Assembly: GCA_023954635.1 (NCBI GenBank)
Contig: JAGSHI010000001.1
Location: forward strand, 62,001 to 126,000
Source: Bacteriovoracaceae bacterium
GTDB lineage: Bacteria > Bdellovibrionota > Bacteriovoracia > Bacteriovoracales > Bacteriovoracaceae
Direction of reading: 5' to 3'
DNA: 64,000 bases
Positions within the stretch are counted from its first letter, which is position 1, and every line of letters begins with the position of its first letter. A program made the position numbers and the translations under genes. Below, one piece after another: positions 15,642 to 30,460 of the stretch. The notes beneath the pieces were generated by a model. It was not told the origin of the DNA, searched no databases, and worked only from the letters and a program-made list of their open reading frames with translations.

Positions 15642-16496
15642 ATGGCCGAAAGTTGGTATTACGTTGATGGAAGTGAGAGGGTAGGACCCGTTGCAAAATC
15701 AGAAATTGAGGGTCTCTTTGATGTTGGAAAACTAAATATTGAATCTTATATTTGGACAAAGGGTTACGATAACTGGAAAAAAATTCAAGAAGTGGATGAT
15801 TTTTCATCTCTGCTTAATGCTTCTCCTTCTGAACCTGAAGAAGTTTCTGTTGAGCCAGCAATAGAAGAAGAGCTTGATGAAGAAGTTACTGCTCCCGTTG
15901 AAATGAAAGTTGAAAGAGCTGAAGTTGATACAAATCCTGCTTCAATAGATTTATCTACTGTTGATAATGACGAAAAAAGAATGACAATTAAAATTGGATT
16001 AGACAGGGGTGGAGATGAAGCTGAGTACGGTCCATTTTCTTTAAATCAACTTAAGCAAGCTTTTATTGAAAAAAGAATCAATGCGAAAACTTTGGTTTAT
16101 ACCAGTGGAATGAACGACTGGACCTTCTTAGCTGACTTGCCAATTTATCAAGATTTATTTGAAGAAATGCCTCCTGTCATTGGAGAAAGTGAGAGACGTT
16201 CTAATGCAAGGAAGCCTTTTGTTGCAAGAATGTTTTTTCATGACGAAAGTGATGTGTTTGAAGGAGTTTGTCGTGATATCTCTATCGGTGGTCTTCAAAT
16301 TCTAATATCTGGTTTTCCTGGAAAAGTTGGTGATGAGGTTAGTTTAAATGTTCACCCAGATAACTCTGAGTATTGCTTTGTTGCCAGTGGTAAAATTGTT
16401 CGTCTTCTTGATGGAGGACAGGGATTTTCTTTAAGGTTTACAGAAATGAGTGAAGAGGCTAAAAATTCTATTTCGGAGTACATCGTTAACGACTAG
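15642..16496 (+). CDS. GYF_2-GYF_2-PilZ protein
   Basis: Domains in order: GYF_2 at about residues 4-60 (WYYVDGSERVGPVAKSEI, then WTKGYDNWKKI); an acidic linker; a second GYF_2 at about 110-175 (EYGPFSLNQLKQAF, then GMNDWTFLADL); and a PilZ domain from about 183. PilZ binds cyclic di-GMP through RxxxR (here within ERRSNARKPF) and DxSxxG (DISIGGL), and both are present. The protein is soluble, so it probably converts c-di-GMP level into protein-protein contact through its GYF modules. The following hydrolase-like gene starts 7 nt after its stop. Confidence 0.82.
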   Translation: MAESWYYVDGSERVGPVAKSEIEGLFDVGKLNIESYIWTKGYDNWKKIQEVDDFSSLLNASPSEPEEVSVEPAIEEELDEEVTAPVEMKVERAEVDTNPASIDLSTVDNDEKRMTIKIGLDRGGDEAEYGPFSLNQLKQAFIEKRINAKTLVYTSGMNDWTFLADLPIYQDLFEEMPPVIGESERRSNARKPFVARMFFHDESDVFEGVCRDISIGGLQILISGFPGKVGDEVSLNVHPDNSEYCFVASGKIVRLLDGGQGFSLRFTEMSEEAKNSISEYIVND

Positions 16497-16503
16497 GAAA
16501 ATA

Positions 16504-17442
16504 GTGGAACCAGAAATCTTCGATCATTCAGAAGAGAAATACCTCGGAATAAAAAATAATAGAAAAATCTATACCGGTTTTTTTCCTGCAAGTCGTGGGA
16601 ATGAAAAAATATATTATAAAAGATCTTTTCCCGAGTCTGAATTGCCAAAACATTTTGTTCATCTCATTATCATTCACGATGCTGGTGATTATCATGGAAG
16701 ATATCAATTTTTAGCCGATTATATGTTTCGAAAAATGAATGATGAAATTGTCGTTACCTGGCTAGATCTTAAAGGACACGGTCTTTCTAGTGGAACTCGT
16801 GGTCACCTTGATGACTTTGATGAGTACTGTGAAGATCTTGGAACACTAATGGACAAAATTCCACATCCAGACTCAAAAATATCCAATATTTTAGTTGGAA
16901 ATGGGATGGGGGCTTTACTCGCTCTTAGGTATTTTCAAGAGTATGCCCATAAGATTAAGACAGAATTGTCGGGACTGATTATCTCTAATCCTCTTATTAA
17001 ACTTCAAATTGATATCCCTAAATGGGGAGGATTTTTGATGAAGGGATGGCAGAAAACTTTCACTCATGTGCGTTTTCCTTATCGATTTAATGGATATGAT
17101 TTATGCAAAGATTCTGTAATGGCCAAAGCCTACAATAGTGACCCAATGATAAATCACCAAGTCTCAATGGGGATAATTCGGGAAATTTTTAATGTTTCCA
17201 GAGAGATTAGGACTGCGAGTTACTTTCTTAATATTCCAACGCTCTTTCAAGTAGGTGAACAGAACCATTTAATTGATCAAAATACCGTAAAACTCTTCTA
17301 TAAGGGGGCTCCGAGGTCTTTAAGTTGCTTTCACTCTTATGAAAGGTCGGGGCATGATCTCTATAATGATTTAGATCGAGACAAGGCGTTTCTAGATATA
17401 TATAATTGGTTAAGGGAACACTTTTATAAAAATGAAAAATAA
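16504..17442 (+). CDS. Alpha/beta-hydrolase-fold protein lacking the catalytic serine
   Basis: The fold matches the monoglyceride-lipase/lysophospholipase group: LIIIHDAGDYHGRY (oxyanion region) and WLDLKGHGLSSGTRGHLDDF. However the nucleophile elbow reads VGNGMGALLAL, so G-x-S-x-G has become G-N-G-M-G with glycine at residue 134. The usual aspartate position reads VGEQNHLID (Asn), while the final histidine (RSGHDLYND) is kept. It is therefore probably a pseudoenzyme or uses other chemistry. I choose GTG at 16504: AGGA lies 5 nt upstream and the start falls just after the previous stop. An in-frame ATG at 16450 is inside the PilZ gene. Its stop overlaps the next lipoprotein gene. Confidence 0.75.
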   Translation: MEPEIFDHSEEKYLGIKNNRKIYTGFFPASRGNEKIYYKRSFPESELPKHFVHLIIIHDAGDYHGRYQFLADYMFRKMNDEIVVTWLDLKGHGLSSGTRGHLDDFDEYCEDLGTLMDKIPHPDSKISNILVGNGMGALLALRYFQEYAHKIKTELSGLIISNPLIKLQIDIPKWGGFLMKGWQKTFTHVRFPYRFNGYDLCKDSVMAKAYNSDPMINHQVSMGIIREIFNVSREIRTASYFLNIPTLFQVGEQNHLIDQNTVKLFYKGAPRSLSCFHSYERSGHDLYNDLDRDKAFLDIYNWLREHFYKNEK

Positions 17443-17956
17443 ACTTATCTTTATCACTCTATTCATGCTCCTAGCTTCTTGCTCAAATTTGAGTAAGAAC
17501 TTTATTAAACAAGGAAAGCAAAACGTTAGAGGTGGATATAGTAAAAATGTTAAATGGGATTCAACTCTTTCATTTAATAGATATTCTTGGTTTCATGAAC
17601 TTACTATGATGTTTGATCTAATGATCGTCGATCTCGATGAGAACTCACCCTTTTATAATTGGCTATCAGATGATGAAAAAGCAGATGTGGCCAACTGTAA
17701 CCGCTTTCAAGTGGCCCTTCTTTATAGCTTGGATGATAGAAGAATATCTAAAAAAGATTTATTAAATCAGTTTGAAGAACAGGGACATGAGCAATTATTG
17801 TTGTCACATTTCACTTCTAACTTTAAGCTCCATCCAGATTTAGAAAGCATGTCTCTCCAACTCTATGATATTTATGGCTTTTGTAAAAAGGGCATTGATA
17901 GCAAAAAAGCACCTTCTGTCCTATTCCCGGGCTTTCCCAACCTTATGTTAAAATAA
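17432..17956 (+). CDS. Lipoprotein of unknown function
   Basis: This is a 174-aa protein with a lipoprotein signal (MKNKLIFITLFMLLASC; cysteine at residue 17). The mature part has an amphipathic helix-rich pattern (WFHELTMMFDLMIVDLDE, then WLSDDEKADVANCNRFQ). I recognise no family. It overlaps the end of the hydrolase-like gene by 11 nt, so it is translated from the same message as the GYF-PilZ and hydrolase-like genes. The three may form a functional unit at the envelope. Confidence 0.6.
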   Translation: MKNKLIFITLFMLLASCSNLSKNFIKQGKQNVRGGYSKNVKWDSTLSFNRYSWFHELTMMFDLMIVDLDENSPFYNWLSDDEKADVANCNRFQVALLYSLDDRRISKKDLLNQFEEQGHEQLLLSHFTSNFKLHPDLESMSLQLYDIYGFCKKGIDSKKAPSVLFPGFPNLMLK

Positions 17957-17977
17957 CACAGCTTAAGAGTCAGGTAA

Positions 17978-18007
17978 TTGATTGAATTTATAATATGATT
18001 TTATATA
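17978..18007 (+). promoter_or_regulatory. Possible promoter for the Ser/Thr kinase gene
   Basis: TTGATT at 17978-17983 is separated by 17-18 nt from TTATAT/TATATA at 18001-18007, about 100 nt before the kinase ATG. The surrounding gap is very AT-rich, so chance matches are likely. Confidence 0.3.
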
Positions 18008-18105
18008 TTCAGATACTTATCTATTTGTTCAAGGAAATTAATTTTATTCAGCTCTTTAGTTTTTAAAATAACCTCCGATAAGTTTCGTTAGGAGTACGCA
18101 TAAAT

Positions 18106-20217
18106 ATGGCGGATGAAAATAAAAGAGAAAGATTTGGACGATACCTCATTCTCGATCACTTAGTTGATGGAGGGATGGCGAAGATCTGTCGTGCAAGGTT
18201 TATTGGTGAGCAGGCCGATAAAGTTGTGGCCATTAAAATGGTCCAGCCGCAGTACTCAAAAGATGAGTCTTTTAAAACTATGTTTATGGATGAAATTGGA
18301 ATTACTTTCGATCTCATTCATCCAAATATTGTTCAAACTTATGATTACGGTGTTCACATGGATCAACTTTATGTTGCTATGGAATACTGTGATGGTAGAA
18401 ACCTAAAAGAATATCTTGATAAGCTGAAAGAAAGAAAGTTTGTCTTTCCTGTTGAAATTTCAGTTTATATTGTGACGCAAATTTGTCAGGGTCTTCATTA
18501 TGCCCACACATATACGAATAAGTTGACTGGTAAATCTGCAAATATTATTCACAGAGATATTTCACCACATAATATTATGTTAACTTTTGATGGCTCTATT
18601 AAGGTCATTGATTTTGGTATTGCTAAAGCTGATACAAACAGTGAAGCGACACAGGCCGGGACAATCAAAGGTAAACTTTCATATCTTGCACCTGAATACC
18701 TTGAAGGTGAAGAGCTAGATCCTCGTTATGATGAATTTGCTGTGGGGATTACTCTTTGGGAAATGCTTTGTTCAAGAAAGCTCTTTAAAGCTTCAAATGA
18801 CTTGGCTGTTCTGAAAAAGATTCAAGAGTGTAAAGTACCACCTCCATCTTCGATTAATCCGAATGTTCCAAAAGAACTAGATGAAATTGTGATGAAGGCT
18901 CTACATAAAGATAGAAATAAAAGATATGAAGATCTAGATAAGTTTAATAGAGCTTTGATGAAGTTTCTTTATACAAACTACTCAGACTTTAATGCAACTG
19001 ACCTTTCTTACTTTGCGAAAGAACTCTTTAAAGAAGATATCAAGGCAGATAGAGAAAAACTTTTCGAGTTTGGAAAAATTGATATTGCTCCTTATATTCA
19101 AGATTGGAAAAATGAGCAATCTGGTGGTGGTCCTAGTCCTGAGGCTGCTGAAGGTGGAGCCACTGAGTCCGATGCTGATTCAGGTGGAAAAAAAGAAAGT
19201 CGAGTTCTCGATTTTGGTTTTGAAGAAGAGAAAGATAAAACTCTTCCTAGAGCTAATAAAACATCAGCGAAGAAAGAAGAAGTTGATATTGATGATAAAT
19301 TTGCTCACTTAGATGAAGATAAGGAAATGTCTCTCGAGACTGGTCTCGATAAGATGAAAAAGAAGAAGGCCGATGCAAAAGAGCAAGAAGCAGCAGAAAA
19401 GCCTGAAAAGAAATCAGTAACAAGAGCGAAGCCAGCAGTAAGAAAAGCTGGTTCGACGAGAAAAATATCAAAGCCAGCTTCAACGACTACAGTTAAAACG
19501 AAAAAGTCGTCGACCACAAAAACAGGTACTCGAACAGTAAGAGTTCCAAAGAAAGAAGCACCTGATGTTAAGAAGTTCGCAGGTATTGCGGTTGCTGCAT
19601 TAGTTTTAGTTTATTTTGGGTGGTCTAAATTTACAGGTGATGATCCGACTATAGCAGATAATCCGGTGGCTAAAGATAGAAAGCCAGCTGATGATAATCC
19701 AGATTCTGAAAGAACGCCAGTTCCTACAAGTAAAGTATATGGAAAAATCCAATTACTCGGTTTCGATAAGTATAAGCAAAAAGCTTATGTAAATGGAAAA
19801 ACTGCCAATATGGGAATTTTGAGTGATATTAAAGTTGAAGCAGAAGCTGATCTCGTTCTAAGAATTCAAAAATCTGGTCGAATTCACTTTATTAAAAAGA
19901 TTAGAGTTCCTCAAGGTGATACAACTTCAATACGAGTTCCAGAGATGCCACCAGCATCGTATGGGTATCTTGTAACTTCAAGAGATTGTTTGAAAGGTAA
20001 GTTATATTTTTCTCTGTTTGGAGAAGACCGAGTTGAGAATCTTCCTATTCCAAGAAAGGGGGGAATTGCTTTCCCTGCTGAAATTGATAGTACAGGTCAT
20101 CTTAAGCCTAAAACCTATGAAGTCTTTTATCAAAAAGATGGAGAAGGGATTCAAAGGCGTGCTAAGTTTACAGTTACTAATGAAAATGACTCAATTGATT
20201 TCTGTGAGTCTATTTAA
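18106..20217 (+). CDS. Hanks-type Ser/Thr protein kinase, membrane-anchored
   Basis: The kinase domain spans about residues 11-290: glycine-rich loop LVDGGMAKICRA, ATP-binding lysine K44 in VVAIKMV, catalytic loop HRDISPHN (149-156), DFG at 169-171, then GTIKGKLSYLAPEYLEGE. The variant HRDISPHN loop is common in Myxococcota and Bdellovibrionota kinases. A long Lys/Glu/Ala-rich linker follows, then one transmembrane helix near residues 490-505 (IAVAALVLVYFGW), and an extracytoplasmic beta-rich domain of about 190 residues that may sense a ligand. It stands alone between a 149-nt leader and a convergent MAPEG gene. Confidence 0.9.
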   Translation: MADENKRERFGRYLILDHLVDGGMAKICRARFIGEQADKVVAIKMVQPQYSKDESFKTMFMDEIGITFDLIHPNIVQTYDYGVHMDQLYVAMEYCDGRNLKEYLDKLKERKFVFPVEISVYIVTQICQGLHYAHTYTNKLTGKSANIIHRDISPHNIMLTFDGSIKVIDFGIAKADTNSEATQAGTIKGKLSYLAPEYLEGEELDPRYDEFAVGITLWEMLCSRKLFKASNDLAVLKKIQECKVPPPSSINPNVPKELDEIVMKALHKDRNKRYEDLDKFNRALMKFLYTNYSDFNATDLSYFAKELFKEDIKADREKLFEFGKIDIAPYIQDWKNEQSGGGPSPEAAEGGATESDADSGGKKESRVLDFGFEEEKDKTLPRANKTSAKKEEVDIDDKFAHLDEDKEMSLETGLDKMKKKKADAKEQEAAEKPEKKSVTRAKPAVRKAGSTRKISKPASTTTVKTKKSSTTKTGTRTVRVPKKEAPDVKKFAGIAVAALVLVYFGWSKFTGDDPTIADNPVAKDRKPADDNPDSERTPVPTSKVYGKIQLLGFDKYKQKAYVNGKTANMGILSDIKVEAEADLVLRIQKSGRIHFIKKIRVPQGDTTSIRVPEMPPASYGYLVTSRDCLKGKLYFSLFGEDRVENLPIPRKGGIAFPAEIDSTGHLKPKTYEVFYQKDGEGIQRRAKFTVTNENDSIDFCESI

Positions 20218-20218
20218 G

Positions 20219-20626
20219 TTAGACACTGAAGATACAAACTAGCCACTCAATCATTATCACAATTTGAATTAGAAAAAAGGTAAACCTTAGGTATACAGCT
20301 ATAACTGATGTTGAACTAAGGTGAATGATCGATTGTAGGATTCTTGCTCCAAGAAAGTAGAGAGCAAAAGTATCTGTGATTTGATAGTACTGCTTGAAAA
20401 TACAAAAAAGAGCGAGTGTTGCAAAGATCGGAAGGTTTTCATAGCAGTTGGCGTGGGCGCGAACTAACCTTTGGTCAAAGCTTGTGACGTCGTCTCCACT
20501 AGGTGAAAATGAGTTGGCCGCTTTTTTGGCAAACAAAATTAAGAAGCTTCTTCTTAGAACGATGATAGTTAAAAGAAGGAGTGTCCAAGAAACGTAACCT
20601 ATAAGTGCAATCTCTATATTTTTCAT
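20219..20626 (-). CDS. MAPEG-family membrane protein
   Basis: This 135-aa, four-helix membrane protein has the MAPEG core FDQRLVRAHANCYENLPIF, where Arg, His-Ala-Asn and Glu-Asn are the conserved glutathione-site residues. MAPEG proteins include microsomal glutathione S-transferases and eicosanoid synthases; bacterial members are mostly uncharacterised. It converges with the kinase gene with a 1-nt gap and is preceded on its own strand by the Nramp-like gene, 180 nt away. Confidence 0.8.
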   Translation of the reverse strand: MKNIEIALIGYVSWTLLLLTIIVLRRSFLILFAKKAANSFSPSGDDVTSFDQRLVRAHANCYENLPIFATLALFCIFKQYYQITDTFALYFLGARILQSIIHLSSTSVIAVYLRFTFFLIQIVIMIEWLVCIFSV

Positions 20627-20671
20627 GGTACGTCACACCTTTTACGGGGTATGTGTCAAAAAAGGTACGTG

Positions 20672-20691
20672 GTACTTTCTAGTACTTTCTA
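20672..20691. repeat. Two tandem copies of GTACTTTCTA
   Basis: A perfect 10-bp unit repeats head to tail (20672-20681 and 20682-20691) upstream of the MAPEG start. It is flanked by TGTCA at about 20653 and TGACA at 20692, which form an interrupted dyad. It lies where MAPEG promoter elements would be, so it may be a binding site. No regulator can be named. Confidence 0.4.
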
Positions 20692-20806
20692 TGACACGGG
20701 TTACGTGTACGCAAATGTAGTCTGCGTTAAGTTCCTGTATATGTTATGATTTTAATATATGGAGCTACTTATATGAAACCTTTTTTTGGAGTAAGGGATT
20801 ACAATC

Positions 20807-22075
20807 CTAATTCGCAATAAACTCAAACCAAATCAAAGCAGCATTCACAAAAAACATAAGACCAACAATTCCATAACAGAAAAAGTTATAAGACGGCGAA
20901 TTGGTATATTCACCCATCACATCAGGGTCATTACATAACTTGATAATAAAGAGAAGAATTAGAGGAATAAGAATCCCATTAATGACTTGAGACCAAATTA
21001 AAATCCCAAAGAGATCAATACCTGGAATTAAGATGGCAAGAGCACCAAGAACTATGAGAGCTGTGAAAATAGTAAAGAAGTTTGGGGCCTCTTTAAAACT
21101 TTTGTCGACACCAGATTCCCAACCGAGCCCTTCACACACATAATAACTTGTCGCCAGAGGCAGTAGGGCAGCCGCGAAAATGGAAGCATTAAAAAGCCCA
21201 ATACCAAAAAGAATAGATGAATACTTTCCGGCCAAAGGCTCGAGCGCTAATGCCGCATCTTTAGCATCAGTTATGGAAACTCCCGAGGGGTAAATGATAG
21301 TTGCACAACAAACAATAATAAAAAGAGTAACCATAAACATAAAGAGACAACCAACAATAACATCTATTTTCGATTCCCAAAGATGTTTGACACTAATGCC
21401 TTTTTCGACAACTGCAGATTGAATATAGAATTGCATCCAAGGAGTGATCGTTGTCCCCATAAGGCCTACGATAATTGGCATATCGGTATATTGAATTTCT
21501 TTTATATTGGGAACAAAAACTGAAGTTGCAACCATCTGCCAATCCGGACCGGCCAAAAAACCAGAAACAATATAAGCTAGAAAAACCGTACAACCCGCAA
21601 GAAAAACTCTCTCTACAATTTTGTAATCACCTTTTATAACAAGAAGCCACACAAAAATAGAGCAAACGGGAACAGAGATATATTTAGAGACACCAAAGAT
21701 TTCACCAGAGGCCGCAATACCTGCAAACTCGGCCATCGTATTACCGAGATCTGCAATGATAAGAAAAATAACAGTATAGAATGTAATCTTAAGCCCAAAA
21801 CGTTCTCTAATGAGATCGGCAAGCCCTTTACCTGAAACAATCCCCATTCTGGCAGACATTTCTTGAACCATAATCAGAGCAACGGTAATAGGGAAGAGAA
21901 CCCAAAGTAATCGATAGCCTGTTTGAGCACCCGCCAGAGAATAGGTCGCTATACCACCAGCGTCGTTATCTATATTCGCTGTGATCAAACCAGGTCCAAC
22001 TATCCCCATGAGGATAATAAACTTGCTCCACAGAGTAACTTTCTTTTTCTTTTTTTCCGGCGCCATCTTATTCAT
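20807..22075 (-). CDS. Divergent Nramp-family divalent-metal transporter
   Basis: This is an 11-12-helix LeuT-fold transporter of about 420 aa, recognisable as Nramp from IVGPGLITAN and the overall helix layout. Both metal-site signatures differ from the canonical ones. The TM1 motif DPGN reads DAGG (residues 38-41), and the TM6 motif MPHN reads TPWM (211-214), so the metal-binding methionine is absent. Loss of that thioether is expected when the ion is hard, such as Mg2+, as in Nramp-related magnesium transporters (family knowledge). The upstream, coupled gene encodes a soluble MgtE_N-CBS protein, which supports Mg2+. Starts at 22075 (overlapping the upstream stop) and 22066 are both possible. 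Confidence 0.85.
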   Translation of the reverse strand: MNKMAPEKKKKKVTLWSKFIILMGIVGPGLITANIDNDAGGIATYSLAGAQTGYRLLWVLFPITVALIMVQEMSARMGIVSGKGLADLIRERFGLKITFYTVIFLIIADLGNTMAEFAGIAASGEIFGVSKYISVPVCSIFVWLLVIKGDYKIVERVFLAGCTVFLAYIVSGFLAGPDWQMVATSVFVPNIKEIQYTDMPIIVGLMGTTITPWMQFYIQSAVVEKGISVKHLWESKIDVIVGCLFMFMVTLFIIVCCATIIYPSGVSITDAKDAALALEPLAGKYSSILFGIGLFNASIFAAALLPLATSYYVCEGLGWESGVDKSFKEAPNFFTIFTALIVLGALAILIPGIDLFGILIWSQVINGILIPLILLFIIKLCNDPDVMGEYTNSPSYNFFCYGIVGLMFFVNAALIWFEFIAN

Positions 22076-23402
22076 CCAATAAGCGGTGTAAAACATCATC
22101 GACAGAAATTATGCCCAGTAGTTCATTCTCTCCATCAACGACAGGAATATTGATCAAGTTATATTTATCCATTATTTCTGCAACATCTTTCCAGTGGCTG
22201 TCTGGAGAGATTTTTTGGATATGTTTTGTCTCCATTATTTCTTCAAGTCGAATATCATCAGCTTGAATAAGAAGATCTCGAAGTTCTAGCGTTCCAAGTA
22301 GTTTGAAATCGTCATCAATCACATAGAGATCATAAATAGTTTCAAGCTCTTCGTGCTTTTCTCGAATTAATTCGAGAACATCTTTTCTCGTGAGATTTTT
22401 AGAGACTTCAAAAACTTCGGTAGACATCAAACCACCTGCAGAATCTTCTTCGTGTTCAAGAAGCTCACCAATTTCCTCTTGGATTTCTTCGTCTTGAATA
22501 TTGGAAATAATCTGGCCAGCTTTTTCCTCATCCATGTCATCTAAGATGTCGGCAGCATCATCAGTATCCATATTCTCAATGATTTTTGCCATTTCTTCAG
22601 GGTCTTTATCCTTAATCATGGACGATTGAACATCTTCTTCAACTTCGGCCAAAGTCTCAGCAGCAAGTTTTGGATGAAGGTCACTGAAGAGAGCGTCTCT
22701 CGCGTGAGTATCAAGTTCTTCTAGGATGTCGGCGATATCAGCAGGGTGAAGCTCTTCGATTTGTTCAGTGTTTAAACTCACCTTAACATTTGATTGAACT
22801 GACTTATCTGGAATAGCGAGAACGTATTTCCAATTGATAAGAGATTCCCGCGACAGGTAAATGGCCTTTGGTTTAACGACTTTGAAAACACCATCAATGA
22901 TTGGCTCAAAACCAAGACGTCTCATCATAGAACGAATACCAATTGCAGCGTGAGTTACTCTTAGGTTTTTTCCGGTTTTAATAAATTGAATATCATTTAC
23001 ACGAACAACTTTTTTTCCACTCGTATCAACGATTTGTCTGTCTAAAATAACTTTCCCAAGAGCAGGGTACTCGACAGTACTTCCATGAAATTGATTAGCA
23101 AGTAATGAGGCCATTACTTTTGTTTTCTTTGCTTTTGGATATGTTCTTGATCGACCGATGTCTGATTCTGATTTAATAATAATTTTTTTATAACTGAACG
23201 TTTTTACATCATCCCATTTAATATAAAAAAGTTGTTTATTTTTGGTGTATTGAATAGCAAGTACAACGGGATAGATTTCTTCATAATCGACAAAAAAATC
23301 AGTTAGGGTTCCTAACTTGTTTCCGTCTTCTGTAATAATTGGAGTTCCAAGACTTCTTGAAAAATGCAGGGATATATCGGAAAAGTATTCAAATACCGAC
23401 AT
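22068..23402 (-). CDS. PRC-barrel/MgtE_N/CBS protein without membrane domain
   Basis: This 444-aa soluble protein consists of two PRC-barrel-like segments (about residues 18-75 and 100-155), an MgtE N-terminal superhelical domain (about 195-300: LHPADIADILEELDTHAR, then EEMAKIIENMDTDDAADIL), and a CBS pair to the end (SAGGLMSTEVFEVS, then IINIPVVDGENELLG-like NLINIPVVDG). In true MgtE these parts sense Mg2+ and gate a fused five-helix channel, but here no transmembrane helix is present. The downstream gene encodes an Nramp-like transporter and is translationally coupled, so this protein probably regulates it. AAGGAG precedes the ATG. It starts 1 nt after the DUF299 gene stop. Confidence 0.88.
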   Translation of the reverse strand: MSVFEYFSDISLHFSRSLGTPIITEDGNKLGTLTDFFVDYEEIYPVVLAIQYTKNKQLFYIKWDDVKTFSYKKIIIKSESDIGRSRTYPKAKKTKVMASLLANQFHGSTVEYPALGKVILDRQIVDTSGKKVVRVNDIQFIKTGKNLRVTHAAIGIRSMMRRLGFEPIIDGVFKVVKPKAIYLSRESLINWKYVLAIPDKSVQSNVKVSLNTEQIEELHPADIADILEELDTHARDALFSDLHPKLAAETLAEVEEDVQSSMIKDKDPEEMAKIIENMDTDDAADILDDMDEEKAGQIISNIQDEEIQEEIGELLEHEEDSAGGLMSTEVFEVSKNLTRKDVLELIREKHEELETIYDLYVIDDDFKLLGTLELRDLLIQADDIRLEEIMETKHIQKISPDSHWKDVAEIMDKYNLINIPVVDGENELLGIISVDDVLHRLLDE

Positions 23403-23403
23403 C

Positions 23404-24246
23404 CTACTCCTTGTTTTGCTTAAAGATATTATTCTTTCTCATATTTAGAAGCTTCATAATTTCGGCAGCAGTTTCTTCTATCGCTTTCCCCGTAATGTTA
23501 AAAACAGGCCAGCGCTTATTCTGTTCAAACAAATCTTCAGCATACTCTATTTCTTGAACGACTTTCGATTGATTTGCATAATCTCCAGTATGTTGACCGG
23601 CTCCTAGCTGTGAAAGTCTTCGTCTTCGAATTTCACTTAAGGCCTCTGGATTAATTGTTAAAGCAAATATTTTTCTTTGGTCAATTTTGTAGAGATGTTC
23701 AGGTAAAGATTGATCAAGAATGATTGGAATATTAACAACTTTGTATCCTCTATGGGATAAGTAAACTGAAAGGGGAGTCTTACTCGTTCGGCTAATACCA
23801 ACAAGAATGACATCGGCAAGATGTAGTGAATCTACATTTCTCCCGTCATCATGATTCATTGTAAACTCCATCGCAGCGACTCGATTAAAATAATCGTCAT
23901 TCACTTGATGAAGTAGTCCCGGTTCGTTACTTGGTTCTTGTTCAAAATAATTAGCAAAGGTTGTGAGAGCAGGACCGAGTAGATCTAGAGTTCTTACGTG
24001 TTTTGTTCTTGAAAGTTCTGCAATATGTTCACGAAGTTCAGCTTGAACAACCGTAAATATAATTAAGTCGTGATGTATCGCGGCCTCCGTGAAGACTGCA
24101 TCGATCTGTTCTTTGCTTCTAACGTTCTTGTAACGAGTGAAATAAACATCTCTATCTTTGAATTGTGCCATGGTTGCACGACAAATTGCTGTAGCTGTTT
24201 CACCTGTACCATCAGAGATAATGATGATTTTGAGTCTATTATTCAT
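23404..24246 (-). CDS. DUF299 kinase/pyrophosphorylase (PEP synthase or PPDK regulatory protein)
   Basis: These regulators phosphorylate and dephosphorylate phosphoenolpyruvate synthase (PSRP) or pyruvate phosphate dikinase (PDRP), with ADP as phosphate donor. The family hallmarks are present: an N-terminal IIISDGTGETA, the P-loop-like GISRTSKTPLS at about residues 150-160, and the C-terminal RRRRLSQL with QEIEYAEDLF. Length (280 aa) fits. Neither target enzyme is encoded in the window, so PSRP and PDRP cannot be told apart. The gene heads an operon with the MgtE-like and Nramp-like genes; PEP synthase and PPDK are Mg2+-dependent, a loose thematic link. Confidence 0.88.
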   Translation of the reverse strand: MNNRLKIIIISDGTGETATAICRATMAQFKDRDVYFTRYKNVRSKEQIDAVFTEAAIHHDLIIFTVVQAELREHIAELSRTKHVRTLDLLGPALTTFANYFEQEPSNEPGLLHQVNDDYFNRVAAMEFTMNHDDGRNVDSLHLADVILVGISRTSKTPLSVYLSHRGYKVVNIPIILDQSLPEHLYKIDQRKIFALTINPEALSEIRRRRLSQLGAGQHTGDYANQSKVVQEIEYAEDLFEQNKRWPVFNITGKAIEETAAEIMKLLNMRKNNIFKQNKE

Positions 24247-24275
24247 TAGGGCCTCACGATAATTTTTCTTTGCTC

Positions 24276-24310
24276 AGGTATAGATTGATTTTATCAAAAT
24301 TACTATACCT
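24276..24310. promoter_or_regulatory. Dyad upstream of the DUF299-MgtE-Nramp operon
   Basis: An 8-bp perfect inverted repeat (AGGTATAG at 24276-24283, CTATACCT at 24303-24310) encloses a second pair (ATTTT and AAAAT) at nearly the same centre. It lies 30 nt before the DUF299 start and has no T run on either side, so an operator or 5'-UTR structure is likelier than a terminator. Confidence 0.45.
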
Positions 24311-24361
24311 TAAATACCGGGAAATATTAGGATTGTATGTGTTTTAGAGTAAAAGGATCAG

Positions 24362-25327
24362 TTAATTTCTCTCTAGAAATTCATCAATATCCTGGAAGAT
24401 TTTCTGTTTCTCATTGAGAGGATGATATTCAGTTTTTGGTTGGATCTTATTAAAAAATGTTCTTTGTGACTTTGCGAGTTGTCTTGTGTGTATGAAAATC
24501 TCTTCTGATAAGTCCTCTTCAGTTTTATCTCCTGCTTTAAGAAATTCGACTACTTCTTTGTAACCAATTGATCCGAGGGCCTTCTCTGATCCGTCGTGGC
24601 CTAGATTAAACAAATTTCGTACTTCATCTATTAGGCCAGATTCAACCATGCCTTTTGCACGGTCTTTGATGAGTGGATAATGTTCATCTTTTGGAATATT
24701 GAGATAGATATGATGGATGTCCCAGTTGTGCTTGGCGTCTTCAGCTAAGTTATAAGGATCCAGTTCGTCCATTTTATTTTTTTGTTCAGAGTACGGGGTT
24801 CCTGTACTTAGGCAATGCTCTAATGCACGGGTAATTCTGTAATGATCATTGGCATGTAAATTTTCATATGAGGTAAGATCTTCTTTTTTCAAAAGCTCTC
24901 TTACAGCTTCAAAGCCAGAGTCATTCTTTAGTTTTTCAATCTTTTGTTTAATATGGTCTGGAGTCGTAGGGGACTCGTACATTCCTTTTACAAGTGCTCT
25001 TAAATAAAATGCACTTCCTCCAACCAGGATTGGAATGATATTTTTTTTATGAAGTGATTCAATCTTGTCTTCGGCAAGGTTGATAAAATGAGAAGCATTG
25101 AAGTCGTCTTTTATGCTTACAATATCTATTAGATCGTGAGGATGTTCAGCCTGTTCAGGTTTTGTGGGTTTTGCTGTACCAATTTCAAGTTCTTTATAAA
25201 AACAAAGACTATCAAAATTTAAGATAATACTCTCTTTGTTTTTATCTTTTAAATATTTTCCAATTTCTATACTTGTACTAGTCTTCCCTGTTCCAGTTGG
25301 ACCACTAACAATGACAACTTTGTTCAC
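24362..25327 (-). CDS. miaA: tRNA dimethylallyltransferase
   Basis: MiaA transfers a dimethylallyl group to A37 of tRNAs reading UNN codons, the first step of ms2i6A. The P-loop is SGPTGTGKTSTS at residues 8-19. The substrate-binding segments are NFDSLCFYKELEIGTAKP (D and S of the conserved DSxQxY region) and LVGGSAFYLRAL, and the C-terminus carries GSIGYKEVVEFL and TRQLAKSQRTFF. Length (321 aa) is normal. The GTG start overlaps the mutL stop (GTGA), and mutL-miaA adjacency is widespread, which supports both calls. Confidence 0.95.
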   Translation of the reverse strand: MNKVVIVSGPTGTGKTSTSIEIGKYLKDKNKESIILNFDSLCFYKELEIGTAKPTKPEQAEHPHDLIDIVSIKDDFNASHFINLAEDKIESLHKKNIIPILVGGSAFYLRALVKGMYESPTTPDHIKQKIEKLKNDSGFEAVRELLKKEDLTSYENLHANDHYRITRALEHCLSTGTPYSEQKNKMDELDPYNLAEDAKHNWDIHHIYLNIPKDEHYPLIKDRAKGMVESGLIDEVRNLFNLGHDGSEKALGSIGYKEVVEFLKAGDKTEEDLSEEIFIHTRQLAKSQRTFFNKIQPKTEYHPLNEKQKIFQDIDEFLERN

Positions 25328-27036
25328 TTGAAGAAATCCTCTAAAGTCTTTTCTGTCAGCTCTTTAATGGTGTTAGCTTCCTGTAATTCTTTTAGTGAAA
25401 ACTTATTGAAAATCGTTTGATATGAACTTTCTGATAAGGGAATGATTTCTGTTTTACTAATGATCCTTGAAAAAAGCTCATTAGATAACTCTTCATTCGA
25501 TTGTTGCAGCTCTGAGAGAACAGGGGACAAGATATCTTTTAAGGCCAGCCCACTTAATAACTCTGGAATTGATCTTAAGACAATGAGATGTGGTTCTAAT
25601 TGTTCAAATTCAAAACCTTTATTAAGCAAAAAACGCACCCACTCACTAGATTTCGATTTCGGATCGATATTAAAAGGCTCTGAAATAAGTAATGGGACGA
25701 CTTCTGAAGACTTAACTTCTGGTGAACAAAAAAGTTTAGTTAGATAACTTTTTTGCAATCTTTCTAGGTCACCAAGAAAAGATTGACCCTCTTTTTTATA
25801 AAGAAAGAAGTTGTCTGAGACTCTTATGAACAATGAAGATCTATCTGCACTTCTGTCTAGAAAACCTTGTGGAGATGGAGTGAATCCCCATTCCGAATTA
25901 CTCTTCATTGGTGTAGAGAAATCAAAAGATTGTGCATCATTAAAAGACATATTTGGAGTTTGCAGTTCTGGTTGCTCATGAACAGGTAATTCATCTTTTC
26001 TTATCGAAAGAGAATTGTTTATTCCAGATTGAATGAGTGAGTAGATGACACCACTTTTAAAAAATTTAATATGAGTTTTATTTGGGTGAACATTAACATC
26101 AATAGCAGATGGAGGGGCATCAATAAATAAAACGTAATGACCTCTTTCTCCAAATGGCCACATCTTTTCAGCAGATCTCATGATGGACTGATGGAGAGAT
26201 TTATCGTGAAAAATTCTTTTGTTTGCGAATAGGAACTGATGTTTACCAGCATTCCCTTTCCCGCTCGTAAGGCTAAGATAACCGTAAACTCTATGACCTT
26301 CATATGAAGCATCGAATGAAATAAGCGAGTCATCTATTTTTTTGTTATTAAAAAATACTTTCTTTATTCTTTGGGCAAAATTATCTTCAGTGACTGCAGG
26401 ATAAAAGATTTTTTCTTTGTCATCCCACCTAACAGAAAAAGCAACACTAGGGTTGGCAAGAATAAATGAATTCACCATTCTTTTAAGAGCGATTTTTTCA
26501 GAGTTTTTAGACTTAATAAACTTCAGTCTTGCAGGTGTATTAAAAAAAAGATCTTTAATAAAAAAGCTAGTTCCAGATGATCCTTTGTCTGCAATAGCAT
26601 GTGACTTTTGTTCACCACCATGGATTACTATTCTTCCACCTGACTCCGATTCATTTTCAGTCTGAGAGTGGCAAGTTACTCGAGCTGTACTTGCAATTGA
26701 GGCAAGCGCTTCTCCTCTAAATCCAAAACTATGCAGTTTATAAAGGTCTTCAAATCTTTCAATTTTTGAAGTGGCATGTCTACAAAAGGCCATGGGAAGG
26801 TCTTCAAATCTCATACCTTTACCATTGTCTTCTATCGATATTAGTTCCATCCCGTTATCAACGATATGAATATCAATCTTGGTTGATCCTGCATCGATGC
26901 TGTTTTCAATTAATTCTTTAATAAGACTTGCAGGTCTTTCGACAACTTCGCCTGCTTTGATTTGGTCAATCAAATGTTCTGGAAGAAGTTTTATATTGGA
27001 GTCTAGAAAATTGGGGGTGTTTGTTGTTTGTACCAC
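25324..27036 (-). CDS. mutL: DNA mismatch repair protein MutL
   Basis: MutL couples mismatch recognition by MutS to strand excision. The GHKL ATPase is intact: IKAGEVVERPASLIKELIEN, ENSIDAGSTKIDI, DNGKGM, HATSKI and GFRGEALASI. The C-terminal dimerisation part is short (570 aa in total), and I see neither the DQHAxxERxxYE endonuclease motif nor the other metal-site motifs. It therefore looks like a non-endonuclease MutL, as in E. coli, yet no mutH is visible here. A GTG at 27036 is the first codon of the frame, 3 nt after the GGDEF gene stop. The gene is coupled to miaA. Confidence 0.93.
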   Translation of the reverse strand: MVQTTNTPNFLDSNIKLLPEHLIDQIKAGEVVERPASLIKELIENSIDAGSTKIDIHIVDNGMELISIEDNGKGMRFEDLPMAFCRHATSKIERFEDLYKLHSFGFRGEALASIASTARVTCHSQTENESESGGRIVIHGGEQKSHAIADKGSSGTSFFIKDLFFNTPARLKFIKSKNSEKIALKRMVNSFILANPSVAFSVRWDDKEKIFYPAVTEDNFAQRIKKVFFNNKKIDDSLISFDASYEGHRVYGYLSLTSGKGNAGKHQFLFANKRIFHDKSLHQSIMRSAEKMWPFGERGHYVLFIDAPPSAIDVNVHPNKTHIKFFKSGVIYSLIQSGINNSLSIRKDELPVHEQPELQTPNMSFNDAQSFDFSTPMKSNSEWGFTPSPQGFLDRSADRSSLFIRVSDNFFLYKKEGQSFLGDLERLQKSYLTKLFCSPEVKSSEVVPLLISEPFNIDPKSKSSEWVRFLLNKGFEFEQLEPHLIVLRSIPELLSGLALKDILSPVLSELQQSNEELSNELFSRIISKTEIIPLSESSYQTIFNKFSLKELQEANTIKELTEKTLEDFFK

Positions 27037-27039
27037 TTA

Positions 27040-27948
27040 TTAAGCTCTGTAGAATTGGACCTGGTTTCTTCCTCCCTGCTTGGCTTTATAAACCGCTTGG
27101 TCAGCTCTTTTGAATAGCTCGGTACCAGACGTCACTCCTTGACGATAGTCAGCAACACCAATTGATGCTGTTACAGGCAATCTTTTTTCGTCATACATGA
27201 AGTGATGCTCTTCAAGTAATTTACGAAGTCTTTCGGCGATATCATATGCTTGTTTAAGATTAGTTTTTGGGAGGAGAATAACAAATTCTTCTCCACCATA
27301 TCTAGCGAATACATCTAGGTCACGAACGCCATTTTTTCTAATGAGTCCGGCCATTTCTTTAAGAACGTAGTCTCCAGCATCGTGACCAAAGTTATCATTA
27401 AGATTCTTAAAATGGTCGAGATCAAAAATGATAAGTGAAAGTGGTTCACCTGTTACTTTTGATTTTTTAACTTCTAAATCGATTCTATTATTAAAATAAG
27501 TTTTGTTATAACAACCCGTGTGTCCATCGGTGTTTGCTTCCCAGTTTAACTTGTCGTAAGCAAGTCTATCCGGATCACCTTTTGGAAGGTACTTCAAAGA
27601 AACTGTACCAATTTTTATAACGTCACCCTTTTTGAGTTGGGTAGGTTGTTCAATTTTATTATTGTTAACGTAGGTACCATTTTTCGAACCAGCATCTTCA
27701 ATATACCAATTGTCTTCTTCTTTATTTGTTAAAGTAAGGTGGTGCCTAGAGATACCTCCAAACTCCAAAGGAATTGTAGTGTCTGCAGAACGTCCTGCAG
27801 TTACAACTTCTACTTCGAGATCAAAAAGAGTTCCGTTTAATTCACCACCAACTACGAGAAGTGCAGCGGGCTTTTTTTCGGCCTCTTTTTCTGCCGATGC
27901 AAGAGCGGCTTTTATGTCTGTTAGAACAATTGTTGAATCGTCTGACAT
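27040..27948 (-). CDS. FHA-GGDEF diguanylate cyclase
   Basis: The FHA domain at about residues 25-115 carries the phosphothreonine-binding signature (GRSADTTIPL, ISRHHLTL, SKNGTYVNN). A GGDEF domain follows at about 130-300 with the active site YGGEEFVILL and a GYNKTYF-like N-terminal signature (GCYNKTYFNNRID). It should make cyclic di-GMP from two GTP, under control of a phosphorylated partner docked on the FHA module. A Hanks kinase gene lies 7 kb away and could supply the phosphothreonine, though this is conjecture. No clear RxxD product-inhibition site is seen just before GGEEF. It lies 3 nt upstream of mutL. Confidence 0.9.
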   Translation of the reverse strand: MSDDSTIVLTDIKAALASAEKEAEKKPAALLVVGGELNGTLFDLEVEVVTAGRSADTTIPLEFGGISRHHLTLTNKEEDNWYIEDAGSKNGTYVNNNKIEQPTQLKKGDVIKIGTVSLKYLPKGDPDRLAYDKLNWEANTDGHTGCYNKTYFNNRIDLEVKKSKVTGEPLSLIIFDLDHFKNLNDNFGHDAGDYVLKEMAGLIRKNGVRDLDVFARYGGEEFVILLPKTNLKQAYDIAERLRKLLEEHHFMYDEKRLPVTASIGVADYRQGVTSGTELFKRADQAVYKAKQGGRNQVQFYRA

Positions 27949-28038
27949 TGGTTCTTTTCCTTAAGCATTAATATCTTTAGAACTACTCAAAATATTATAT
28001 CCACTGTGGCCCTATTACAATAGGTTACATATGCCTTT

Positions 28039-29319
28039 TTAAGCTTTATTCGCCCCGTCAAGCCATTCATACGCAAATTGCTTTCCGGCCTCAACACCCG
28101 GTTGATCAAAAGGGTTTATATTAAAATAATGACCCATCAAAGCAGTCAGACTTTCAAAATACATAATGAGCCCACCAATATTGATCTCATTACATTTCGA
28201 AATTTTTATATTGAGATAAGCTCGGTTGTTTTGTTCAAGGGCCTTAAGCGTTCCTTGGTGCTCTGCTTTCATCAATTGGCCTAGGCTAAAAGGGGCCAGT
28301 CTTTTTAATGACTTTTGCTCAAATGAATTATTGAGGCTGAAATCATGAGCGAATTGGTCAACTTCGATGATGAGCGCAAGTTTATCAAATGGTCCTTCCA
28401 TGAAGAGTTGAACTTGAGAATGTTGATCAGTTGCACCATAGGCCGGAATTGGAGTGAGGCCTGTATTAACAACTTCTCCGTTGAGATTATTTCTCTTTCC
28501 AAGTGATTCTGCCCAAAGTTGAACAAACCAAAATGAAAGGTCTCGAAGCATGCTGCTGTAAGGCATAAAAACTGTTTGATGAATATTGTGTTCTTTATAA
28601 AGTCCATAAATAAAAGAAGCGGATTGAAGAAGTAAGTTTTTATCGAGATCAGAATTTAGAAGATCTTCTTTTATGACTTCTGCACCTCTGACTAGAAGTT
28701 TAATATCTATTCCATCAAATATTGCTGGAAGAAAACCTACAGGTGTTAAGACACTAAATCGACCCCCAACATTTGAAGGTATTTCAAGGCATTTGATATT
28801 GAGTTCATTACCAAGGTCAAGAAGTTGAGAATTCTTTGGATCAGTGGCAAAAACCATATATTTATTCCATTCCGATTTTGGAATATTTTTTTCTTCTAAT
28901 AGGTGAGCAACGATAGCAAGACCTGACATGGTCTCGGCAGTTCCACCAGATTTTGAAACAAAGTAAAAAAGAGTTGAATCTAGATCGATATTCTTTAGCT
29001 GATTCCAAGTTCTATCGGGATCAATATTATTTAAAAAAATGAAATTTCTTTCACCATTCCCAAGAGAGGAATGAAGCATCTCCGGACCTAGACTTGAGCC
29101 ACCAATTCCAACTTGGACAAAAGTTTTCTTATCTGAAAATTGATCAAAGATTTTTTCACAAGAGGAAATGAGGCTTTCATTTTTGGTGATATGAAAGAAA
29201 CCATATTGAGAATCATTAATGATATTATTAAATGCCTCTAGCTTGGATGAAAGAAACTCTCTTTCGAACCATTTCGAGTCTAACTTATCTTTCCCGAAAT
29301 ATTTTGTTTCAAATGGCAT
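28039..29319 (-). CDS. pgi: Glucose-6-phosphate isomerase
   Basis: The enzyme interconverts glucose-6-phosphate and fructose-6-phosphate. Recognisable segments are VQVGIGGSSLGPEML, FVSKSGGTAETM (phosphate-binding SIS loop), GRFSVLTPVGFLPA, and the C-terminal NPFDQPGVEAGK. At 426 aa it belongs to the shorter bacterial form, not the 550-aa E. coli type. AAAGGA precedes the ATG. It follows the acyl-CoA dehydrogenase gene by 10 nt, so it is the last gene of a three-gene minus-strand run, an odd metabolic mix. Confidence 0.95.
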   Translation of the reverse strand: MPFETKYFGKDKLDSKWFEREFLSSKLEAFNNIINDSQYGFFHITKNESLISSCEKIFDQFSDKKTFVQVGIGGSSLGPEMLHSSLGNGERNFIFLNNIDPDRTWNQLKNIDLDSTLFYFVSKSGGTAETMSGLAIVAHLLEEKNIPKSEWNKYMVFATDPKNSQLLDLGNELNIKCLEIPSNVGGRFSVLTPVGFLPAIFDGIDIKLLVRGAEVIKEDLLNSDLDKNLLLQSASFIYGLYKEHNIHQTVFMPYSSMLRDLSFWFVQLWAESLGKRNNLNGEVVNTGLTPIPAYGATDQHSQVQLFMEGPFDKLALIIEVDQFAHDFSLNNSFEQKSLKRLAPFSLGQLMKAEHQGTLKALEQNNRAYLNIKISKCNEINIGGLIMYFESLTALMGHYFNINPFDQPGVEAGKQFAYEWLDGANKA

Positions 29320-29329
29320 GGTTTTCCTT

Positions 29330-30460
29330 TTAAGAATATTCTTTTTTTAAGCTTCTAGCGATAACAACTCTTTGAATTTGATTTGTACCTTCTAAGATTT
29401 GAAGCACTTTGGCGTCTCTCATGAGCCTTTCAACAGGATATTCTGATGTGTACCCAACTCCACCCAAAATTTGAACAGCGTCAGTCGAAACTTTCATCGC
29501 CGTGTCTGTAGATTTCATCTTTGCCATTGATGCTAACTTTTGATTTGGCTTACCTTCATCATAATATTTCGCCGCTTGCTCTACGAGTAGTCGGCTAGCT
29601 TCAGTTTCAGTGGCCATATCTGCCATCATGAATTGGAGCCCTTGAAAATCAAAGATTTCCTTTTTGAATTGTTTTCTTTCTAGAGAGTAACTAATTGATT
29701 CATCAATGGCCCTTTCACAAAGGCCGACGGCAATTGAACCTATTGTAATTCTGCCTCTGTCTAGAGCAGCCATGGCTATCTTGAAACCATAACCTTCTTC
29801 TTTTAAGAGGTTTTCCTCTGGAACAATACAATTTTCAAATATTAACTCTCGAGTAGGTGAAACTTTCCAACCCATCTTTGATTCTTTTTTACCGTAAGAA
29901 AACCCATCCATTCCATCGCGTACAATAAAGGCTGAAATCCCTTTGTGACCTTCCTCTCCAGTTCTCGCCATAACAATATAAGTTTTAGCAATGCCACCGC
30001 TCGTGATCCACATTTTTGAGCCATTGAGGGAGTAGCCACCATCAACTTTCTTAGCTGTCATTTTAAGACTTGCAGCATCTGAGCCACTTGAAGATTCTGA
30101 AAGGCAAAAGGCTCCAATCTCTTCTCCACTGGTTAAAGAAGGAAGATATTTTTTCTTTTGTTCATCATTTCCAAACTCATTTATGATTGCTTGAACCATT
30201 GTTGAAACACTTATAGTTGCAGCATAAGAAACAGAACTTTTTGCAATTTCTCCGAGGGCAACACAGAGGTCTTGGTAAGTGAGACCTGCCCCTCCATGAT
30301 CTTCTGGAAGAGTCATTCCACAAAATCCGAGTTGTCCTAACTCTTGAAAGAGTTCCATTTTGAAATGTTCATTTTTATCATCATGCTCAACTGTAGGTTC
30401 AATTTTTTCTTTTCGAAATCGCTCAAGTTGACTCTTCAATTCTGTTTGAATTTCATTCAT
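29330..30460 (-). CDS. Acyl-CoA dehydrogenase
   Basis: FAD-dependent acyl-CoA dehydrogenase of 376 aa. Signatures: GAFCLSESSSGSDAASL, KMWITSGGIAKTYIVMA, and the C-terminal QILGGVGYTSEYPVERLMRD followed by ILEGTNQIQRVVIA, where the glutamate is in the catalytic position of the short-chain and butyryl group. It sits 7 nt after another acyl-CoA dehydrogenase gene and 10 nt before pgi. Substrate length cannot be read from these motifs. Confidence 0.88.
   Translation of the reverse strand: MNEIQTELKSQLERFRKEKIEPTVEHDDKNEHFKMELFQELGQLGFCGMTLPEDHGGAGLTYQDLCVALGEIAKSSVSYAATISVSTMVQAIINEFGNDEQKKKYLPSLTSGEEIGAFCLSESSSGSDAASLKMTAKKVDGGYSLNGSKMWITSGGIAKTYIVMARTGEEGHKGISAFIVRDGMDGFSYGKKESKMGWKVSPTRELIFENCIVPEENLLKEEGYGFKIAMAALDRGRITIGSIAVGLCERAIDESISYSLERKQFKKEIFDFQGLQFMMADMATETEASRLLVEQAAKYYDEGKPNQKLASMAKMKSTDTAMKVSTDAVQILGGVGYTSEYPVERLMRDAKVLQILEGTNQIQRVVIARSLKKEYS

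Follow-up and report, generated by a model that had tools for sequence, protein, structure and literature searches.

Within the 64,000-nucleotide stretch of DNA analysed here (the window), a gene for a soluble protein resembling the cytosolic part of the magnesium channel MgtE is tightly coupled to a gene for a transporter of the Nramp fold, which raises the questions of which metal the transporter carries and what the MgtE-like protein does beside it. Transporters of this kind were named NrmT by Shin et al. (2014; PMC4072509), who found most members of the group beside a gene whose product is homologous to the cytoplasmic domain of MgtE, and who proposed a feedback control. A search for literature on NrmT together with MgtE, with subscription literature largely outside its reach, returned nothing beyond PMC4072509 and PMC8806188.

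The two proteins of the pair

The sensor gene (positions 22068 to 23402, reverse strand) encodes a protein of 444 amino acids, assigned on the basis of Pfam, PDB and Foldseek matches, an AlphaFold model and hydropathy, while the gene of the NRMT-type Nramp-fold transporter (20807 to 22099, reverse strand) encodes 430 amino acids from the ATG at 22099 and was assigned by PF01566, a match to EleNRMT, alignment and a phylogenetic tree. Both form part of a tightly packed run beginning with ppsR (23404 to 24246, reverse strand; PF03618, 308 bits), which encodes a PEP synthase/PPDK regulator and is treated as a flanking gene outside the system. The sensor ATG, with a GGAG motif just 5' of it, is situated 2 nt past the ppsR stop, and the transporter ATG at 22099 results in a 32-nt overlap with the sensor open reading frame, which terminates at 22068. 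Further in-frame ATGs occur at 22075, where the overlap with the sensor takes the form ATGAATAA, and at 22066, and either is an equally or more plausible transporter start.

A PRC barrel (residues 11-91; 28.6 bits), an MgtE N domain (MgtE_N, residues 212-316; 83.5 bits) and a CBS pair (residues 330-443; 63.3 bits) were identified in the sensor, all above their Pfam cut-offs, with a second PRC-like barrel at residues 109-154. The sensor is acidic (89 D+E versus 52 K+R) and no hydrophobic segment was found in it, with a top 19-residue Kyte-Doolittle mean of 1.12. A preliminary description of this DNA had placed here, with the same coordinates, a gene with PRC-barrel, MgtE_N and CBS domains and no transmembrane helix, as the Pfam scores and hydropathy confirm. 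The MgtE profile TIGR00400 covers only residues 211-439, corresponding to the cytosolic part, at a score below the family cut-off, and the PDB sequence search matches the sensor to the cytosolic domain of TtMgtE. The AlphaFold model, derived from 28 homologues, has a mean pLDDT of 84 but a pTM of 0.45, so that the individual domains can be relied on but not their relative placement. Cytosolic domains of MgtE rank first in the Foldseek search with this model, where the high rmsd across two domains likewise leaves the arrangement unsettled.

The pore domain of MgtE (PF01769) is present in neither protein of the pair, nor was it found elsewhere in the window genome, which rules out that the pair represents an MgtE channel divided over two genes. 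The title given in the preliminary description ("Magnesium channel split into two genes") misleads, since transporter and MgtE pore share no homology; the sensor module has not been separated from its pore in this gene but accompanies a transporter of another fold.

The Mg2+-site residues tested in TtMgtE include D91/D247 (Mg4), D226/D250 (Mg5), D95 (Mg6), E59 (Mg7), E258 (Mg2) and D259 (Mg3) (PMC5882242). Among 89 partner proteins, the equivalent of D95 is conserved in 89/89, those of D91 and D247 are each kept in 80/89, and that of E59 is E or D in 72/89, a degree of retention that is expected of any functional N domain and provides no test of sensing, since these acidic residues belong to the general MgtE_N motif. 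The D226 equivalent of Mg5 is mostly Asn and that of D250 is variable. The window sensor retains the Mg4, Mg6 and Mg7 residues and lacks the Mg2, Mg3 and Mg5 sites, and as its C-terminus lies four residues beyond the equivalent of TtMgtE V251, the plug helix is absent. The lost parts (the plug-helix residues and Mg5) are those tying the sensor to the plug of MgtE. Given that the helix which closes MgtE is missing, the gating of MgtE cannot simply carry over to the pair. Specific residues for mutation follow from the Mg4, Mg6 and Mg7 sites that are kept and from the loss of the plug helix.

The transporter belongs to the Nramp family (PF01566, 329 bits). Its metal-site motifs were located by alignment, with coordinates taken from the reading frame, as D46-A-G-G49 in TM1 (21953 to 21964, reverse strand; canonical DPGN) and T216-T-I-T219-P-W-M222 in TM6 (21434 to 21454, reverse strand; canonical AxxMPHN). 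DxxN and AxxM are thereby replaced by DxxG and TxxT, in agreement with the definition of the NRMTs by Ramanadane et al. (2022; PMC8806188), which combines DxxG in TM1 with TxxA/T in TM6. The position of the metal-ligand methionine is occupied by threonine 219, not by methionine 222, and the ligand has thus been lost. A coupled Nramp transporter with DAGG in TM1, TPWM in TM6 and no metal-binding methionine had been described previously for this locus, and the family match, the alignment and the gene overlap agree with each of these points. At the positions inspected, the proton path of the Nramps has lost protonatable residues, with W221 in place of the first TM6 histidine and I226 at the second position, while D46 and E124 are kept.

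EleNRMT of Eggerthella lenta, which transports Mg2+ and Mn2+ without proton coupling (PMC8806188), is the best solved relative of the transporter at 380.7 bits, versus at most 87 bits for the Mn/Fe Nramps. In a maximum likelihood tree of 75 proteins, a rapid reconstruction in which some branches are long and which was built without the A. capsulatum and C. acetobutylicum NrmT sequences, the 62 NRMT rows, including EleNRMT and the window protein, need one origin (SH-aLRT 90). The canonical Nramps (SH-aLRT 100) stand apart from them, as do DPSG-type proteins, which form a third group (99). The window protein scores below the cut-offs of the canonical Nramp/MntH models TIGR01197 and NF001923, and motif, scores and tree together rule out a canonical Mn/Fe Nramp; the grouping with Mn2+/Fe2+ Nramps that would have spoken against the preliminary description did not occur. 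The third Nramp type, seen at five loci (L066, L067, L064, L013 and L014), has D-P-S/A-G in TM1 and GTTISPY in TM6, with no MgtE-like partner seen, and may correspond to the published Slc11 outgroup.

Distribution of the pair and of M-box riboswitches

Scanning of a species-genome collection yielded at least 572 relatives, of which the best 80 were kept. The TM6 pattern GT[TS][IV][TA]PWM occurs in 80/80 of these, a uniformity partly due to selection as this pattern was one of two scan seeds. Six of the 80 loci are cut at the transporter start, and among the 74 assessable loci (from the best 80 of at least 572) an MgtE_N-CBS neighbour was found in 65, across many phyla, with no adjacent partner in the other nine (9/74). 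The partner is usually encoded directly upstream of the NRMT gene, sometimes downstream or convergently, and the partners checked with Pfam also match the PRC domain, in some cases below the cut-off. No gene fusing sensor and transporter, as the preliminary description had proposed looking for, was observed among the loci examined.

Packed bacterial runs often hold unrelated genes, ppsR being an example here, and the two proteins could in principle be unrelated products of an accidental neighbourhood. This is scarcely credible, as it is contradicted by the retention of the pair at 65/74 loci in many phyla, which indicates that the pairing is not due to chance, and by the MgtE-like partner being the sole neighbour common to these loci; the rarity elsewhere that would have refuted the preliminary description was likewise not observed. 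At three Myxococcota loci (L113, L125 and L143) the MgtE-like partner lies on the opposite strand and convergent with the NRMT gene, so that the pairing survives without an operon. The mirror-tree correlation between sensor and transporter (r 0.81 overall, 0.74 in the family) is given no weight, because shared ancestry alone yields such values.

An M-box Mg2+ riboswitch precedes 9/33 loci tested, seven times before the partner gene and twice before a partnerless NRMT gene. None was found at the window locus (positions 16000-30000), and the M-box is known from a subset of NrmT operons only and is not required for membership. At loci L102 and L109, which have no adjacent MgtE-like partner, the M-box lies directly 5' of the NRMT gene, beside a large gene resembling a KdpD-type sensor kinase.

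Exchange with MgtE within the family

The window genome (98 % complete) encodes one Nramp, one MgtE_N and one CNNM protein. No MgtE pore, CorA or ATPase above the MgtA cut-off was found in it. The best match to the MgtA profile scores 408.6 bits, short of the 610.75 cut-off, and was rejected as an MgtA-type ATPase; to our reading it is a candidate Ca2+-type P-type ATPase.

The pair occurs in 31/129 family genomes (cut by contig ends in two of the 31) at one conserved site with the order mutL-miaA-(ppsR)-sensor-NRMT-kinase. The ppsR gene is the 5' neighbour of the pair in most family genomes and remains where the pair is absent, and in 12/14 pair-less relatives no more than about 60 nt separate it from the kinase gene, from which it follows that the pair was gained or lost as a unit. 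MgtE is encoded in 4/31 genomes with the pair versus 84/98 others (Fisher p 1.3e-13) and, when only the more complete family genomes are considered, in 2/18 with versus 50/55 without (p 5e-10), the tables being tallied by hand and the p-values too small because family genomes share ancestry. In the five mixed genera, MgtE occurs in 15/15 pair-less members and in 4/15 pair-bearing ones (p 5e-5). A phylogeny of the flanking genes provided 8 supported independent pairs, with a mean of 7.2 opposite versus 0 same-way changes (median p 0.016), a result biased towards exclusion since the pair-less rows were chosen among MgtE-bearing genomes. Outside the family, 2/4 genomes with the pair also carry a second MgtE-like gene, as long as a complete MgtE gene, and the exclusion is thus not universal.

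Two genomes counted among the 98 without the pair (G183 and G184) encode an NRMT that has diverged (32-33 % identity; motifs DAGG and GTTIAPWM) and is followed downstream by its MgtE_N-CBS partner (L065:3278-6268, forward strand; L068:1880-4688, reverse strand); they have no MgtE channel. A further genome, which has MgtE, contains a short remnant of an Nramp gene (G146:C152:10466-10813) that includes two TGA codons in frame and may be a decaying transporter gene.

The family exchange supports a magnesium role of the pair, provides independent evidence that the pair does the job of MgtE, and is the one new, useful element of this analysis. The pair shows no trade-off with canonical MntH, as two of the genomes with a canonical DPGN-type Nramp, of which there are only six, also have the pair. 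These patterns bear on the proposal that the pair is mainly an importer of manganese, or transition metals, whose MgtE-like protein responds to Mn2+ and not Mg2+. NrmT of Acidobacterium capsulatum, which has an MgtE-like neighbour, gave full rescue of Mn2+ uptake and partial rescue of growth on Mg2+ (PMC4072509), behaving for the most part as a Mn2+ system, so that the presence of a partner alone is no proof of Mg2+ selectivity; EleNRMT also carries Mn2+ (PMC8806188), the window has no M-box and its genome no other Nramp. We nevertheless consider manganese as the main substrate quite improbable, as the pair swaps in the family with MgtE, a Mg2+ channel, and not with canonical MntH (2/6 overlap, small numbers), homologues carry M-boxes, and of the dedicated Mg2+ importer classes included in the searches the window genome would have none without the pair.

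Proposed function and comparison with known systems

The reading we favour, and regard as reasonably probable, is that the pair constitutes an NrmT/NRMT-type Mg2+-uptake operon, in which the transporter imports Mg2+ and the partner senses Mg2+ and inhibits the transporter. Mg2+ is the likely main substrate, favoured by the exclusion with MgtE and the M-boxes on homologous operons, and gating by the partner is plausible. By homology with EleNRMT, the transporter would mediate the uptake of Mg2+, probably also of Mn2+, with no coupling to protons, while the sensor would respond to cytosolic Mg2+, perhaps together with a nucleotide. At high Mg2+ its N domain is predicted to close onto the CBS pair via the retained Mg4, Mg6 and Mg7 sites, and the closed sensor may then dock on the cytosolic face of the transporter, possibly through the PRC barrels, and inhibit it. 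Within the family the pair stands in for MgtE, differently in different species, and in MgtE the same sensor is fused to an unrelated pore.

The partner might also be merely co-expressed with a Mg2+ importer, serving as a buffer of Mg2+ or Mg-ATP, a chaperone, an assembly factor or a signal to something else, which we consider rather unlikely. Shin et al. named a chaperone role as an alternative, found Clostridium acetobutylicum NrmT to function without its partner and observed no gain in Mg2+ rescue on co-expression of the A. capsulatum partner (PMC4072509); the sensor also lacks the plug helix and some NRMTs have no adjacent partner. However, a negative feedback regulator would be dispensable for rescue, so the published rescue assays do not test gating, and the fact that the two genes are lost or gained together and are tightly coupled suggests a joint function.

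Returning to the uptake operon, we tentatively put forward as a possibility that an MgtE-type sensor acting in trans, as a soluble subunit docking by its PRC barrels, closes an Nramp-fold Mg2+ transporter without a plug helix, that one sensor controls two unrelated folds and that the two systems swap repeatedly within one family. If the partner does gate the transporter, a single ligand-sensing module would regulate transporters of two unrelated folds, being fused to one and acting in trans on the other. The preliminary interpretation is partly supported: its Mg2+-type transporter of Nramp fold is favoured by the EleNRMT clade, the MgtE exclusion and the M-boxes on homologous operons. The interpretation is right for the most part, but had appeared earlier as a published hypothesis.

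The sensor shares with the MgtE channel of Thermus thermophilus (PDB 2yvy/2zy9) the N domain and CBS pair with the Mg4, Mg6 and Mg7 residues, and differs by the absence of a pore domain and of the plug helix, by changed Mg5 residues and by some 210 additional N-terminal residues carrying the PRC barrels. With the canonical Mn/Fe Nramps (MntH, DMT) the transporter has its Pfam family and fold class in common, while their DPGN and AxxMPH motifs are absent from it and it falls in a separate clade. EleNRMT (PDB 7qia, PMC8806188) is 45 % identical to the transporter and shares DxxG in TM1 and Txx(A/T) in TM6, Asp55 and Glu133 (D46 and E124 here) and Trp in place of the TM6 histidine; the methionine position holds Ala in EleNRMT and Thr in the window protein, which is still within the published NRMT motif. 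Compared by their published description, the NrmT operons of C. acetobutylicum (Ca_c0685) and A. capsulatum (Acp2976-2977) combine a transporter gene with an adjacent gene for the MgtE cytoplasmic domain, as does the window locus, with the sensor encoded by one gene in the window and by two in C. acetobutylicum. The gene arrangement and the proposal of feedback both appeared in print in 2014, and the pair is a member of the described NrmT/NRMT class.
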